NCBI GenBank assembly: GCA_002683405.1 | Contig: NYTH01000041.1 | Location: 1-64,000 of the forward strand | Direction of reading: 5' to 3' | DNA: 64,000 nt | Origin: Salinisphaeraceae bacterium | Lineage (GTDB): Bacteria > Pseudomonadota > Gammaproteobacteria > Nevskiales > Salinisphaeraceae | Translations under genes and position numbers: made by a program | The notes under the pieces: model-generated | Seen by the model: only the letters and a program-made list of their open reading frames with translations | Databases searched by the model: none | Told to the model about the DNA's origin: nothing | Shown here: one piece after another, positions 19,491 through 48,343 of the stretch | Layout of the letters: each line of letters starts with the position of its first letter | Position numbering within the stretch: position 1 is the stretch's first letter

Positions 19491-19522
19491 AAGCCCGGTC
19501 CTCGTGACCGGGCTTTTTTTTT
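19491..19522 (+). terminator. Intrinsic terminator of OmpA paralog 1
   Basis: AAGCCCGGTC and GACCGGGCTT form a perfect 10-bp stem with a 5-base loop, followed by an uninterrupted T-run. It lies 25 bases after the stop codon. Confidence 0.92.
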
Positions 19523-19556
19523 GACTTCGGCGCACGTCCGATCAAAGAAAAAGTCT

Positions 19557-19585
19557 TTGCCCGTCGGCATGTTCCATGCTAATTA
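19557..19585 (+). promoter_or_regulatory. Probable promoter of OmpA paralog 2
   Basis: TTGCCC, a 17-base spacer and TAATTA give a reasonable sigma-70 match between the terminator of paralog 1 and the start of paralog 2, leaving a leader of about 65 bases. Together with the terminator it suggests independent transcription. Confidence 0.4.
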
Positions 19586-19655
19586 TGTGCCGCGGCAGGC
19601 ATTCCGAGAGGATGCTCGCCCGGCCGAAAAACAACCAATTCAGGGAGACGAGACG

Positions 19656-20792
19656 ATGAAGAAAACTCTCGCGATGCTGGCCCCGGCATTGCTCGCACTA
19701 TCGATGTCCGCTGGTGCCCAGGAAGAGCCGTTTGATGACCGGTTCTATGTGGCGCCGCAAGTGAGCTGGGGATTTTTTGATGACCAGAATGATATCGAGC
19801 TTGATGACGAGTTTGGTTACGGCGTGGCCATCGGCAAGCCCATTACCAAATGGTTCAACCTGGAGGGGTACTACTTCCGCTTCGACGATGTTGGCATTGA
19901 AGAAGCCGCCGCGCTGGGCGATCCCGAAGTCACGCTGGAAGGCTACGGCCTGACCGGCCTGTTCTTCCCCGTGCCGGACGCCTTCCGCATGTTCTTCCTG
20001 GCCGGTTACGCCGTGGGCGACTATGACGTGAGCGGCTCCAACGTCCAGGCACTCAATGCCGTTGACGAGGATGCGGACCACATCGATGTCGGCCTGGGCT
20101 ACATGCACGAGCTGAACGATTACGGCCTCGCGCTTCGTGGCGAGTACCGCTACCGGATTACCGACGCCGACAACCCGCGCAATATTCCGGGCGCTGACCT
20201 GGAGGACAACTACGACAATCACGTTGTTTCTCTCTACCTGCAGATCCCGCTGGGCGCCAAGCCGGTTGCACCGCCGCCGCCCCCGGCGCCCGAACCCGCG
20301 CCCGAGCCCGAGCCCGCTCCGGTGGCTCCCGTGGACACCGACGGTGATGGCGTACCGGACAATGCCGATCAGTGCCCCGGCACGCCGGCCGGCACCCAGG
20401 TGGATGCCCAGGGCTGCCCGGTCAAGAAAGCCGAGCCGATCATCCTCAAGGGCGTGAACTTCGAGTTCAACTCGGCGAAGCTGACCAGCGAGGCGACCAA
20501 TCGCCTGGATAACGTCGTGAACGCGCTCAGCGCCAGCGAGCAGATCGAAGTTCGCATTGAAGGCCATACCGACAGCATCGGTGGCGCCAGCTATAATCTG
20601 AAGCTGTCCAAGGAGCGTGCTGCATCGGTCCGTCAGTACCTGATTGACCGGGGTATTGCCGCCGACCGGCTCACCAGCGAAGGTTATGGCGAATCACAGC
20701 CGATCGCGGCGAACAACAAACCCAACGGTGCGGACAACCCGTCCGGCCGCGCCAAGAACCGTCGCGTCGAACTGGAAGTCGTAAACCAGTAG
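19656..20792 (+). CDS. OmpA-family outer-membrane protein, paralog 2
   Basis: A 378-residue protein with the same architecture as its upstream paralog: signal peptide (about residues 1-21, ending SAGA), barrel domain starting RFYVAPQVSWGFF, a proline/glutamate linker, a TSP3 motif (DTDGDGVPDNADQCPGTP) and an OmpA C-terminal domain with IEGHTDSIGG and RAKNRRVELEV. The ATG at 19656 is preceded by AGGGAGA. Barrel regions of the three copies differ much more than the C-terminal domains, implying the same anchor with different surface-exposed parts. Confidence 0.93.
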   Translation: MKKTLAMLAPALLALSMSAGAQEEPFDDRFYVAPQVSWGFFDDQNDIELDDEFGYGVAIGKPITKWFNLEGYYFRFDDVGIEEAAALGDPEVTLEGYGLTGLFFPVPDAFRMFFLAGYAVGDYDVSGSNVQALNAVDEDADHIDVGLGYMHELNDYGLALRGEYRYRITDADNPRNIPGADLEDNYDNHVVSLYLQIPLGAKPVAPPPPPAPEPAPEPEPAPVAPVDTDGDGVPDNADQCPGTPAGTQVDAQGCPVKKAEPIILKGVNFEFNSAKLTSEATNRLDNVVNALSASEQIEVRIEGHTDSIGGASYNLKLSKERAASVRQYLIDRGIAADRLTSEGYGESQPIAANNKPNGADNPSGRAKNRRVELEVVNQ

Positions 20793-21030: not shown

Positions 21031-22197
21031 ATGCAATTCAAGAAAATCGCAGCCTTGCTGGCCGGCATCACGGTGGCCTGGGCGGCAACCGCGAACTCGG
21101 CCGAACGCGCCGACGCCTCGGAATACGAACGCTGGGACCCCACTGACAAGCGGTTCTATGTCGCACCCATGGCGAGCTACAGCGACTTTGACGAAGACAC
21201 TTACGATACCGACGATGCCTTCGGCGGTACGCTGGCACTCGGCAAGACCTTCACCAAGTATCTTGCGCTCGAGCTCTACGGCTTTCACTTCAATGGCGCT
21301 GACAGCCAGATCAACAGCAACGACGTGGAAGACATCGACGCCACCGGCTACGGTGTAAGCGCGCTGTTCTTCCCGATTCGCGACATCTTCCCCGTCTTCG
21401 GCGTCGCCGGTATCGGACAGGGCGAATACGAATTCAACGGCGGCGTTCTCGATGAGGGCGAACAGGACGCTGACTTCGTCGATATCGGCGTTGGCTTCCT
21501 GGCTCCGCTCGCCGACATGGGCGTGGACAACCGCTACGACATCGCAATTCGCGGTGAGGTGCGCTGGCGTTCCTATGACGTGGAAAGCGACTTTTCCGAC
21601 AAGGAATACCAGTTCCGTAGCTACGTCGCCTCCCTCGGCCTGCAGATCCCGCTGGGCGCCAAGGCCGAGCCCCCGCCCCCGCCGGCACCGGAACCGGTGG
21701 CCGTGCCCGTACCTGTACCTGTCCCCGCACCGCCTGTTGATTCCGACGGCGACGGCGTACCCGACAACCGCGACCAGTGCCCCGGCTCTCCGCCCGGCAC
21801 GCAGGTTGATGCGAACGGCTGCCCTGTCCAGAAGGAAGAGCCGATTGTCCTGAAGGGCGTGAACTTCGAATACGATTCCGCGCGTCTGACGTCGCAGGCC
21901 CAGAATCGCCTCGATAATGTGGTCAACGCGCTGGCGGCCAGTCAGCAGATCCGGGTTCGGGTCGAAGGGCATACCGACAGCAAGGGCTCTGCGTCGTACA
22001 ACCTGACGCTGTCGCGCGAACGTGCCGCTTCGGTGGTGAGCTATCTGGTGTCGCATGGCATCGACCGCTCGCGCCTGCAGTCCGAAGGCTACGGTGAGAC
22101 GCGCCCGATCGCGCCGAACACCAAGCCCAGCGGCGCCGACAACCCGGCCGGTCGTGCGCAAAACCGTCGCGTGGAGCTGCACGTTATCGAGCAGTAG
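21031..22197 (+). CDS. OmpA-family outer-membrane protein, paralog 3
   Basis: A 388-residue protein with signal peptide (about residues 1-24), barrel domain containing RFYVAPMASYSDF, a linker rich in PVPVPVPAPP, a TSP3 motif (DSDGDGVPDNRDQCPGSP) and an OmpA C-terminal domain with VEGHTDSKGS and RAQNRRVELHV. The ATG at 21031 follows GGGAGGGA. It ends the tandem array and has its own terminator. The role is presumed structural at the outer membrane; calcium binding by the TSP3 loop is inferred from the family. Confidence 0.93.
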   Translation: MQFKKIAALLAGITVAWAATANSAERADASEYERWDPTDKRFYVAPMASYSDFDEDTYDTDDAFGGTLALGKTFTKYLALELYGFHFNGADSQINSNDVEDIDATGYGVSALFFPIRDIFPVFGVAGIGQGEYEFNGGVLDEGEQDADFVDIGVGFLAPLADMGVDNRYDIAIRGEVRWRSYDVESDFSDKEYQFRSYVASLGLQIPLGAKAEPPPPPAPEPVAVPVPVPVPAPPVDSDGDGVPDNRDQCPGSPPGTQVDANGCPVQKEEPIVLKGVNFEYDSARLTSQAQNRLDNVVNALAASQQIRVRVEGHTDSKGSASYNLTLSRERAASVVSYLVSHGIDRSRLQSEGYGETRPIAPNTKPSGADNPAGRAQNRRVELHVIEQ

Positions 22198-23322: not shown

Positions 23323-24255
23323 TCAGCGCGACTGTTCGACCTGCGGCGAAAGGCCCGTCAGGTCCTTGACTGTCCGCTGCCTCGATATTGCAGCAGTCTG
23401 CGACATGAACGAGCCCACATATACGCGGTAGCGCCCCTTCTCGTTGTCCACCACCTTGAAACGGTCCTTGACGCCCGCTTCGGCCAAACGTCGGTCCATC
23501 TCCAGCACATCCTCCGCGTTGCCTGCCACATAGACCACGTTGAACCGCTCCGGAGTTGCCGCACCGGTTTCCGGCCGCCCGTCGGCTTTTCCTGCGGATC
23601 GCGCCGAGCCGGGTGCCGGGTCGTTCGTGGGGATCGTTTCAGGTGAGGACTGCGATGCCGGTCGCGCAGCAGCCTCGGCGTCCTCTCCGGGCGAATAACG
23701 CGCGAGATCTCCGCGCATGTCATCCACCAGTTCCGCCCGCCGCGATTCGCCCCAGATTTCCGGCGGCTGCGGCGGTAATTCCACCGTTTGCGCCTGCGAC
23801 GTCTCCGCATCGCGGGCCTGGCGCCGGGTCTCAACCACGCGCAAGCGCTCCGACGGATAGTCGGTGCGGACCCGATCGCCTATTTTTGGCATGCCCGTTG
23901 GCGCTGTCGCTTCCGCCCGGGGCGCCGTCTCGGATGCTTCTGGCAACTCGCCGGGGGCCTGCGCCGACTCATAGTCCGCCTGGGCCTGTTCAAGGCGACT
24001 CAGACGCTGTCGCAGGCTCAGCAGATGTTCGCGCTGGGCCCGAATCTGGGATTCCAACCGCTCTACATCCTCGCGTAATTCATCAGCGGTCTGTCCCGTC
24101 ACCTGATCAACGGGTCCACCCGCATCCGGCGCGGCCAGCCCGATCGGACTACACAGCGCGGCAATGAGAACGAGGGACAGAGAAATAGCGGTTCTGGTCA
24201 ACACGATAAGTTCGCTTCCACGGTCGTGATCCAGCGAAAACCGACGTGAATGCAT
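23323..24255 (-). CDS. SPOR-domain envelope protein
   Basis: A 310-residue protein with an N-terminal hydrophobic signal or anchor (about residues 20-42), a predicted coiled coil (about 55-100, rich in Glu, Arg and Leu heptads), a low-complexity middle and a C-terminal SPOR domain (about 235-305, with RFNVVYV, FKVVDN and YRVYVGSF). SPOR domains bind denuded peptidoglycan at division sites. The start is uncertain: a downstream GTG giving a cleaner signal peptide is possible. No specific orthologue was recognised. Confidence 0.8.
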   Translation of the reverse strand: MHSRRFSLDHDRGSELIVLTRTAISLSLVLIAALCSPIGLAAPDAGGPVDQVTGQTADELREDVERLESQIRAQREHLLSLRQRLSRLEQAQADYESAQAPGELPEASETAPRAEATAPTGMPKIGDRVRTDYPSERLRVVETRRQARDAETSQAQTVELPPQPPEIWGESRRAELVDDMRGDLARYSPGEDAEAAARPASQSSPETIPTNDPAPGSARSAGKADGRPETGAATPERFNVVYVAGNAEDVLEMDRRLAEAGVKDRFKVVDNEKGRYRVYVGSFMSQTAAISRQRTVKDLTGLSPQVEQSR

Positions 24256-24272
24256 GCCGGTCCCGCTCGAAG

Positions 24273-24554
24273 ATGATTCCTGCGGATATTCTGAACAAGG
24301 TGCGGGTGAATTTGAAGGGCGCCTCAGAACGCAAATTGGTCGTCGGAAGGAAACGGCTCATTTCCGACAGGCCCGCCACACGGGTCCTGGAGTCAGGCGG
24401 GAAGAAGTTCCACTTGATAGAAGATGCGGGCGCTATCGGCGCTCGGCGTCAATTCATTGATGATCGGGCCATTGACTGTTCTCCAGGCGGAATTCGTCTC
24501 GGGCAATATGCGGAACAGCCCACTCAGCAGAGGATTCCGACCTACCTTCTGTAG
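24273..24554 (+). CDS. Doubtful small reading frame
   Basis: An open frame of 93 codons with a polar, basic product and no recognised motif. Third-position GC bias is weaker than in neighbouring genes and no good ribosome binding site precedes it. It lies in the roughly 830-base gap between the SPOR-domain gene and tRNA-Pro. It may be a decayed gene or chance; no function is proposed. Confidence 0.2.
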   Translation: MIPADILNKVRVNLKGASERKLVVGRKRLISDRPATRVLESGGKKFHLIEDAGAIGARRQFIDDRAIDCSPGGIRLGQYAEQPTQQRIPTYLL

Positions 24555-24579
24555 AAGAGACCGCCGCTAGACCGGTTTA

Positions 24580-25084
24580 GGCTTGCCGCTGGCGACCCAG
24601 TTTCGTTGCTTTGCCGGCGCGCGTACCGCCTTGGCGGCAAAACGGTCTGTAAGGGGCTGATTGCGGCTCGGCTCGTGGAGTAAAAATTGTCGCTGAGGCG
24701 CGTCATAGCCCTCTAGCGACAGCGATGTTCCGTTTTCCCCGGTCCGCGTACCGCGTTGGCGAAGATGCGATGTTGGAGGAGGAAATTCCGGCCTGGCTGT
24801 TGGAGTAGGAACTGCGGCGAGGCCGATTCGCTCTTTCCACCAACGGCCATTTTCCGTTTTCCTCCCGGTCCGCGTACGGCGTTGGCGAAGATGCGATGTT
24901 GGAGGAGGAAATTCCGGCTTGATTGCTGGAGTAGGAACTGTGGCTGAGGCGCATTGACGCTTTCCACAGACGGCCATTTTCTGTTTTCCTCCCGGTCCGC
25001 GTACCGCGTTGGCGAAAATGCGGTGCTGGAGGAGGAAATTCCGGCTTGATTGCTGGAGTAGGAACTGTGGCGGTGGGCCGGAAT
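24580..25084 (-). repeat. Tandem array of about 126-bp repeats 3' of tRNA-Pro
   Basis: Four head-to-tail copies with a period of 125-127 bases fill the region immediately downstream of tRNA-Pro on its strand. The conserved plus-strand box TGGAGTA recurs at 24676, 24801, 24927 and 25054. Copies also share GGAGGAGGAAATTCCGG, GGTCCGCGTACC/G and a GGCCATTTTC-like box. The three tRNA-proximal units are close copies; the distal unit is degenerate. A long open frame crosses the array and the tRNA, but the product is repeat- and tRNA-derived and is not accepted as a protein. Confidence 0.88.
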
Positions 25085-25161
25085 TGGTCGGGGTAGCAGG
25101 ATTTGAACCTACGACCTTCTGCACCCCATGCAGACGCGCTACCAAGCTGCGCTATACCCCG
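25085..25161 (-). tRNA. tRNA-Pro (anticodon GGG)
   Basis: A 77-base cloverleaf. The acceptor stem CGGGGTA pairs with TACCCCG, the D-arm contains AGCGCAGCTTGGTAGCGC, the anticodon stem TCTGC/GCAGA encloses the loop ATGGGGT with GGG at positions 34-36, and the T-arm contains GGTTCAAATCC. The 3' CCA is encoded. It reads CCC and CCT codons. It stands alone and is followed by the tandem-repeat array. Confidence 0.97.
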
Positions 25162-25216
25162 AACGCGGCGAATGATAACTGATTAACCGGAGCGAGAAAA
25201 TGCTTGCGGCGGATAT

Positions 25217-25576
25217 TCAGCCATCCAGCGACGCAATAATATTCTCGAGTTCGCGGCGAATCTTGTTGAGTGAATCACTGGCGCTGCCGGCCGGCACGGC
25301 GGCCATTGCCTTGTTGCGCTCTTTCAACTGCAGCCGTGCCCCGCTGATGGTGAAGCCTTCCTCGTAAAGCAACTCACGAATATTGCGTACGGTCTGGACG
25401 TCCTGCTGCTTGTAGTAACGCCGGTTGCCGCGTCGCTTCACCGGTTTGAGCTGAGGAAACTCCTGCTCCCAGTAGCGCAATACGTGCGGTTTGACGCTGC
25501 ACAGATCACTGACCTCACCAATTGTGAAGTAGCGCTTTTCTGGAATGGGGGGCAGCGTGTCAGTGCTTGGATTCAA
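25217..25576 (-). CDS. MerR-family transcriptional regulator
   Basis: A 119-residue protein with an N-terminal winged helix-turn-helix: [22 protein letters not shown], followed by RRGNRRYY and [13 protein letters not shown] short helical C-terminus has no visible metal- or redox-sensing cysteines beyond the one in the HTH. It overlaps the ihfA 3' end by 17 bases. A MerR-like gene directly after ihfA is common in gammaproteobacteria; its target is unknown. Confidence 0.88.
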
Positions 25577-25859
25577 CGGCGGACTCTACTCTGGCCCGCA
25601 GCTTCTGGCCCGGGCGGAAAGTCACGACGCGACGGGCAGATATGGGAATTTCCTCACCCGTTTTCGGGTTCCGGCCCGGACGCTGATTCTTGTCACGCAA
25701 CTCGAAGTTCCCGAAACCGGAAAGCTTCACCTGCTCGCCCGCCTCCAGGCGGCCGCGAATATCTTCGAAAAACGCGTCAACAAAATCTTTTGCTTCGCGC
25801 TTGTTGAAACCCAGCTGCTCGAACAGCGTGTCGGCCAGATCCGCTTTTGTCAGTGCCAC
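25560..25859 (-). CDS. ihfA: Integration host factor alpha subunit
   Basis: DNA-bending nucleoid protein, 99 residues, acting as a heterodimer with IhfB. The GTG at 25859 gives the canonical N-terminus (V/M)ALTKADLAD and is preceded by GGGGAC about 10 bases upstream; the upstream ATG readings lie within pheT and lack family similarity. The beta-arm motif [10 protein letters not shown] with the intercalating proline is present. It follows pheT by 4 bases, the universal gammaproteobacterial arrangement. Confidence 0.95.
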
Positions 25860-48296: not shown

Positions 48297-48343
48297 AATT
48301 CCGTTTTTAGGCGTATCGATTACGCCAAAACCGCACGGAATTT
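48296..48343 (+). repeat. Nested inverted repeat after tRNA-Asn
   Basis: Outer arms AAATTCCGT/ACGGAATTT and inner arms GGCGTA/TACGCC could fold into one long hairpin starting at the tRNA 3' end, followed by TTTCTTT-like sequence. It may serve as terminator or processing signal for the tRNA transcript. The remainder of 48344-48639 shows no supported gene. Confidence 0.5.

Follow-up and report, generated by a model that had tools for sequence, protein, structure and literature searches.

A hairpin flush with the CCA end, and tandem repeats behind it, in tRNA 3′-trailers of a Salinisphaeraceae genome

Results

Tandem units behind tRNA-Pro(GGG)

The window analysed here is the whole stretch of 64,000 nucleotides taken from contig NYTH01000041.1 of a Salinisphaeraceae bacterium (assembly GCA_002683405.1). 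A tRNA-Pro(GGG) gene lies on its minus strand at 25085-25161. The gene was identified by ARAGORN and by Rfam RF00005 (63.4 bits); it encodes the CCA terminus and its discriminator base is A. Upstream of the gene there are a MerR-like gene and ORFs whose translations were read as IHF and PheT. Downstream of the array described below, a SPOR protein and a GluQ-like tRNA-synthetase homologue are encoded. Elsewhere in the window, two adjacent and similar ORFs arranged in tandem (19521-20792 and 21031-22197) were read from their translations as OmpA-like.

An earlier note had described four tandem units of 125-127 bp behind this tRNA gene and on its strand, and they were confirmed at 24568-25072 (minus strand). 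Tandem Repeats Finder reported 24728-25072, with a period of 127, 2.7 copies and 90% matches. The repeat search placed the starts at 24568, 24693, 24819 and 24946, with spacings of 125, 126 and 127. Unit 1 (24946-25072) and unit 2 (24819-24945) are 127 bp long, unit 3 (24693-24818) is 126 bp and unit 4 (24568-24692) is 125 bp. All four were also detected by an iterated HMM, in which the distal unit, correctly described as decayed, scored 58.9 bits as against 112.8, 110.8 and 90.2 bits for the others.

The units had been said to begin at the tRNA 3′ end. The array does lie directly behind the tRNA, but its first unit starts 12 nt past the CCA. The supposed likeness between the units and the tRNA tail was not borne out. 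Aligned with the final 45 nt of the tRNA, the units scored 11-14, and 770-988 of 1000 shuffles scored equally well or better; for the GTTCCTACTCCAGC box, which had been likened to the T-arm/CCA end, the scores were equalled or beaten by 428-846 of 1000 shuffles. Past the array, at 24526-24551 (minus strand), the 3′ part of tRNA-Pro recurs in degenerate form; its local alignment score is 25, a value reached by 9 of 1000 shuffles and by 2 of 1246 background windows. What the units have in common is not a tail copy but an arm that can pair with the bases at the start of the tRNA trailer.

Other classes of sequence were rejected for this array. An intrinsic terminator (GC hairpin and T run) was found neither within 24200-25700 nor in the 130 nt behind tRNA-Pro(GGG). 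Intrinsic terminators occur behind 1 of 10 tRNAs that carry the hairpin described below and behind 7 of 33 others (P=0.66). Because this rarity is not significant, replacement of a terminator is not supported. A 192-aa frame spans the array; it has no Pfam match, and because a unit is 127 bp long, the frame changes from one copy to the next. As for a tRNA-targeted integrative element, no integrase was found among the window neighbours tested; such an element is present at tRNA-Phe, where it probably displaced the array. Although 374 phage records were matched, the 20 matches listed cover the tRNA part alone (query 1-83), and viral_contigs gave no match; therefore, a phage origin was rejected.

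A covarying hairpin starts at the first base past the CCA

The 12 nt between the CCA of tRNA-Pro(GGG) and unit 1 contain the 5′ arm ATTCCGGC (25077-25084, minus strand), which is flush with the CCA. It forms a perfect 8-bp helix at offset 0 with the first 3′ arm, GCCGGAAT (25038-25045, minus strand), and thereby closes a hairpin of 47 nt. The core TTCCTCCTCCA (25027-25037, minus strand), defined by alignments, is located immediately 3′ of this hairpin.

We scanned the trailers of all 43 tRNA genes of the genome for such helices, using 300 shuffles for each trailer. The best helix lies at offset 0 after the CCA in 11 of 43 trailers, with 0-3 of 300 shuffles as good. A CCTCC-type core stands behind ten of these 11 helices. 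The exception is tRNA-Asn(GTT), where a perfect 8-bp helix of the same size is flush with the CCA (window 48297-48342) and no CCTCC core follows. In the case of tRNA-Lys(CTT), the hairpin sits behind a second copy of the tRNA's own tail. A second hairpin of tRNA-Pro(CGG) also follows a tail copy, and contig C28 ends with two further hairpins that follow tRNA-Phe tails. In all 14 hairpins, ACCA precedes the helix, the start is the first base past the CCA, the 8-bp arms are perfect and closure comes 47-50 nt on.

Across these 14 loci, five arm variants occur (TTTCCCGC, ATTCCGGC, TTTCGCGC, TTTCCCAC and ATTCCCGC), each with its exact complement. All eight pairs are present in 14 of 14 hairpins, and four of the eight have changed on both sides. 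The covariation score was 0.291, compared with 0.075 in shuffles, and none of 500 shuffles reached it. A ninth candidate pair is formed in just 5 of 14 hairpins, and RNAalifold recovered the flush helix alone. It should be mentioned that the 14 sequences are mutually related, so that compensatory events are few, and that arm-to-arm templated repair in a DNA hairpin could mimic compensatory changes. The core is altered in tRNA-Leu(CAG) and in both Phe hairpins.

The element is found only in arrays behind tRNA genes

The genome comprises 3.72 Mb in 58 contigs. BLAST with two units gave ten matches, all behind tRNAs: Pro-GGG, Pro-TGG, Pro-CGG, Lys-CTT and Val-CAC. An HMM built from these matches detected 19 units across the five arrays and, when run over the window and the sequences flanking the 43 tRNA genes, gave weaker matches, each of them directly behind another tRNA: Leu-TAG, Tyr, Leu-CAA, Leu-TAA, Leu-CAG or Lys-TTT. 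We also built a covariance model from 12 hairpins. It gave 25 matches at E<=0.01, namely the 14 flush hairpins and 11 internal units; 13 of the 25 were outside the model set. The earlier note had named copies scattered at non-tRNA loci as counter-evidence to a tRNA origin. None was found: all 25 matches lie in arrays behind a tRNA 3′ end and on the same strand, and scattered palindromes of the REP/BIME type were rejected on the same ground. Seven weaker matches (E 0.07-0.69) comprise four array units and partial matches on contigs C8, C18 and C30, which we take for chance. In this search, the first look scored 150 of 2877 candidates, so that weak copies may be missed. Thus, the Pro-GGG array is not isolated but belongs to a genome-wide set, and its link to tRNA is strong.

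Twelve tRNA genes carry the hairpin: Pro (three), Leu (four), Lys (two), Tyr, Val-CAC and Phe. All 12 have discriminator A, compared with 22 of all 43 tRNAs (P=4.2e-5, although the several Pro, Leu and Lys genes do not count as independent cases). Contig C43 has the intact tRNA-Phe gene, which is immediately followed by a phage-type integrase (Pfam E=1.2e-29; L013:1656-2720). On contig C28, a tail copy (L208:2345-2390) is an exact match to the last 46 nt of the tRNA-Phe gene, and a hairpin comes next. Probably an integrating element split tRNA-Phe from its old trailer, in which case the Phe array would predate that element.

Internal units keep the 3′ arm and lose the 5′ arm

Nine of the twelve tRNA genes have further units, of about 59 to 130 bp. 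These non-first units keep a CCUCC-type core and a 3′ arm, the complement of the flush 5′ arm of their own array. In the Pro-GGG array, the 3′ arm GCCGGAAT is repeated in unit 2 (24911-24918) and unit 3 (24785-24792), both of which have lost the local 5′ arm, and unit 4 has the arm GCCGCAAT with one mismatch. At the position of the local 5′ arm, internal units reach at best 3-6 of 8 pairs, even with shifts of up to 4 nt. The scan for 3′ arms allowed up to two mismatches and is therefore biased towards matches; in a unit alignment made without any arm condition, 10 of the 13 internal units at the Pro, Lys and Val loci had the exact complement.

The spacing of the 3′ arms is locus-specific: 59-60 nt for Tyr and Leu-CAA, 81 for Leu-TAG, 124 for Leu-CAG and 126-130 for Pro, Lys and Val. 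Thus, the same core was apparently amplified several times. The units cluster mostly by locus. Inside the units, RNAalifold (18 units) detected no conserved structure beyond weak short stems, and an internal CCTCC/GGAGG helix, considered as a candidate, was not recovered.

The element is confined to one lineage among the genomes searched

The earlier note proposed a search for the unit in related genomes. BLAST with two units gave no match in 60 relatives. In the 16 other genomes of the family, the hairpin model had no match under E=0.05; three of them gave one weak match each (E 0.056-0.096). The pairing of MerR with tRNA-Pro(GGG) is conserved in 17 of 17 family genomes. In the 15 other family genomes with usable sequence behind this tRNA, neither a flush hairpin (P<=0.01) nor a tail copy was found there. 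Pattern scans of genome_contigs and viral_contigs gave no match with a pattern that fits 9 of our 14 hairpins, in collections from which records close to this genome are possibly absent. A stricter pattern matched 1 of 369 genomes, a weak figure because it fits 3 of the 14 hairpins. Within the sequences searched, the element is confined to one species or genus.

Tail-copy cassettes and RtT

When tRNA-trailer repeats are discussed, those of the E. coli tRNA-Tyr operon usually serve as the example. The comparison that the earlier note drew with them proved apt: RtT-type units are the nearest known system. The RtT model (RF00391) matched 17 of 41 genomes, ten above the cut-off, with relatives and E. 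coli among the matches. Examples from the relatives follow tRNA-Tyr and tRNA-Arg, and in them the tail recurs at intervals of about 180 nt; as a yardstick, E. coli K-12 has tails at 178, 356 and 534. In the genome studied here, the model had no match at E<=0.01, and ten loci scanned at E<=1 had none. Conversely, the hairpin model found nothing at 15 RtT loci (best E 0.71).

A second kind of trailer repeat is present in this genome. A copy of the tRNA's own tail occurs within 700 nt downstream in 11 of 43 tRNAs, compared with 0 of 43 upstream and 0 of 43 with the reversed tail. These cassettes fall below the RtT model and yet end like RtT units: in the Ser, Gln, Gly, Met and Val-GAC cassettes, GC hairpins lie inside the T-loop copy and a tail copy stands at the end. 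Repeats of either kind are found at 21 of 43 tRNA genes (12 with the hairpin and nine more with tail copies only), and the two kinds co-occur at Lys-CTT, Pro-CGG and Phe. Tail-copy cassettes look widespread. In distant Gammaproteobacteria, 4 of 40 tRNA-Pro(GGG) genes have downstream tail copies, for example at 113 and 226 nt (L100, L115, L119 and L151; L115 is Saccharospirillum salsuginis).

Predicted folding of precursors

In computed folds with trailers of 60-62 nt, the flush helix has a probability of 0.92-0.99 in seven of ten precursors and is weak (0.10-0.22) in Tyr, Val-CAC and Leu-TAA. Seven of the ten are predicted to keep the acceptor stem (0.86-1.00), and Pro-TGG, Pro-CGG and Val-CAC to lose it. 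When 520 nt are added to tRNA-Pro(GGG), the 5′ arm would pair with the first 3′ arm at a probability of 0.20 and with the third at 0.74. Thus, a choice of 3′-arm partner is possible in silico. However, the predicted acceptor stem falls to 0.00-0.07 in such long folds, and because it is broken they are poor models of a pre-tRNA.

Discussion

Four properties suggest that the element belongs to the pre-tRNA transcript: the strand, the exact start past the CCA, the covarying helix and the loss of this helix from internal units. We therefore propose, tentatively and as the explanation to which we give most credit, that the Pro-GGG array is a locally amplified form of a transcribed tRNA 3′-trailer element. 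The element would be transcribed as the trailer of the pre-tRNA, and its hairpin may set where nucleases cut or stop during formation of the tRNA 3′ end. With extra 3′ arms in reserve, the single 5′ arm might still find a partner, and the trailer could still fold, after the transcript has lost sequence at its 3′ end. Units that are set free may remain in the cell as small RNAs. The arrays presumably grew in place through duplication and to some extent spread from one tRNA locus to another. The function of the element may lie in processing, in insulation or in small RNAs.

This proposal is supported by the flush start in 14 of 14 hairpins together with the 25 of 25 tRNA-anchored matches, 13 of them outside the model, and by a helix that covaries and stays perfect at the CCA while internal units keep the 3′ arm only. 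Amplification of the core with unit lengths that differ from tRNA to tRNA, and the clustering of units by locus, argue in the same direction, as does the strong helix predicted for most short precursors. On the other side stand the relatedness of the sequences with their few compensatory events, the possible repair of DNA hairpins, and the weak helices and acceptor-stem losses predicted for some short precursors. Because the element is absent from all relatives examined, tRNA maturation in general does not need it.

We also considered a more specific form of the proposal, in which a lineage-specific device of the pre-tRNA trailer uses the tRNA-fused 5′ arm to pick among tandem 3′ arms. Because several loci have arms in common, trailers of different tRNAs could pair in trans. 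Such a device is improbable. If it existed, six tRNA families (Pro, Leu, Lys, Tyr, Val and Phe) would have their 3′ maturation linked.

In our ranking, 3′-end processing or insulation comes before a tRNA-targeted DNA element, and trans-acting RNAs come third. The second explanation, which we regard as unlikely, is a non-autonomous DNA insertion beside ACCA that enters at tRNA tails, perhaps via recombination there, and multiplies in place; the helix would then be a structured end with no role in RNA. The sharp left end at the CCA and the restriction to one lineage among the genomes searched agree with such an insertion. At Lys-CTT, Pro-CGG and Phe, moreover, the arrays stand behind tail copies as if trailers had moved as blocks. 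The bias to discriminator A, with its partly non-independent copies, fits a tRNA-targeted DNA element and the processing or insulation reading alike. However, neither a right end, nor a target duplication, nor an empty site was found. A DNA element would also retain its helix, whereas the internal units lose it, and no copy is found away from tRNA tails although ACCA is common.

Units freed as trans-acting small RNAs would pair with Shine-Dalgarno sequences through the CCUCCU core, or a protein would bind the repeats. In most copies this core has the sequence of the anti-Shine-Dalgarno hexamer, and tandem copies suit a sponge. CcsR of Rhodobacter is a group of small RNAs with CUCC motifs in tandem, which resemble the tandem copies of the CCUCC-type core; to our knowledge, CcsR-type small RNAs are not tRNA trailers. 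Another parallel is 3′ETS-leuZ of E. coli, a tRNA 3′ external transcribed spacer that acts as a sponge, and thus a tRNA trailer with a possible second role. We know of neither a tandem array nor a CCA-flush hairpin in it. PMC4986893 describes E. coli RtT as released from the tRNA transcript, which favours trans-acting RNAs; RtT is also treated in PMC2965389. In contrast, weak short stems are the only conserved structure found by RNAalifold inside the units, and the core is altered at three hairpins. We consider this explanation distinctly improbable.

Still less probable is a neutral origin, in which tRNA loci slip and recombine and the by-products persist through chance and through gene conversion among tRNA copies. 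Tail-copy cassettes are common, both here and behind tRNA-Pro in distant Gammaproteobacteria, so that these loci do recombine readily, and the distal units decay. Such an origin is difficult to reconcile with a flush helix that is perfect in every hairpin despite five arm variants, and with amplification of the same core at different tRNAs in different unit lengths.

Membership of the RtT family, which is present in relatives and shares the place and tandem arrangement directly behind a tRNA gene on its strand, is refuted at the level of the sequence family and can hardly be entertained, because the RtT model has no match in this genome, the period is 125-127 and not 178, and the units lack a tRNA tail. 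The array differs further in its CCA-flush hairpin, with a single 5′ arm and many 3′ arms. Thus, of the tRNA-derived repeat growth suggested in the earlier note, the tie to tRNA genes stands, but the units are not copies of the tRNA tail, unlike rtT units.

In search listings and the opening lines of abstracts, nothing was found on tandem repeats behind tRNA genes in general. RtT-type cassettes are now seen across relatives and several tRNA types. One genome contains two kinds of trailer repeats, and the hairpin kind has a signature at the RNA level, the covarying helix flush with the CCA. This helix makes it testable whether trailer repeats act in tRNA 3′-end formation, act as small RNAs or are mere products of recombination. 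The arrays hint at an unrecognised handling of the tails of tRNA transcripts.

Additional trailer features

RtT-type cassettes of tRNA-Arg and tRNA-Ser(TGA) (L076, L075 and L094 in relatives; L025 in this genome) contain the 5′ half of the T-arm as an exact antisense copy, which follows the tRNA type. Such copies occur in 1 of 43 tRNAs of this genome and 5 of 53 of the relatives, never upstream, and not in the window array. Two Arg trailers of relatives have a 14-15 bp hairpin flush with the CCA.

The GC-hairpin inserts of the tail-copy cassettes form a Ser/Gln group (L025, L053, L050, L032 and L044) and a Met/Gly/Val/Phe/Pro group (L016, L033, L014, L023, L208 and L010). Inserts of one group match each other on the plus strand, and those of different groups match on the minus strand. 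Apparently, the T-loop copy can hold the insert either way round, although the insert's palindromes could blur this picture. Near tRNA-Pro(CGG), a 14-bp repeat, CCTTCGACAGGCTT, is arranged in tandem (L010:4268-4350). In the cassette of tRNA-Gln(CTG) (L044:1552-1720), an intrinsic terminator is located directly past the CCA and again after the tail copy.
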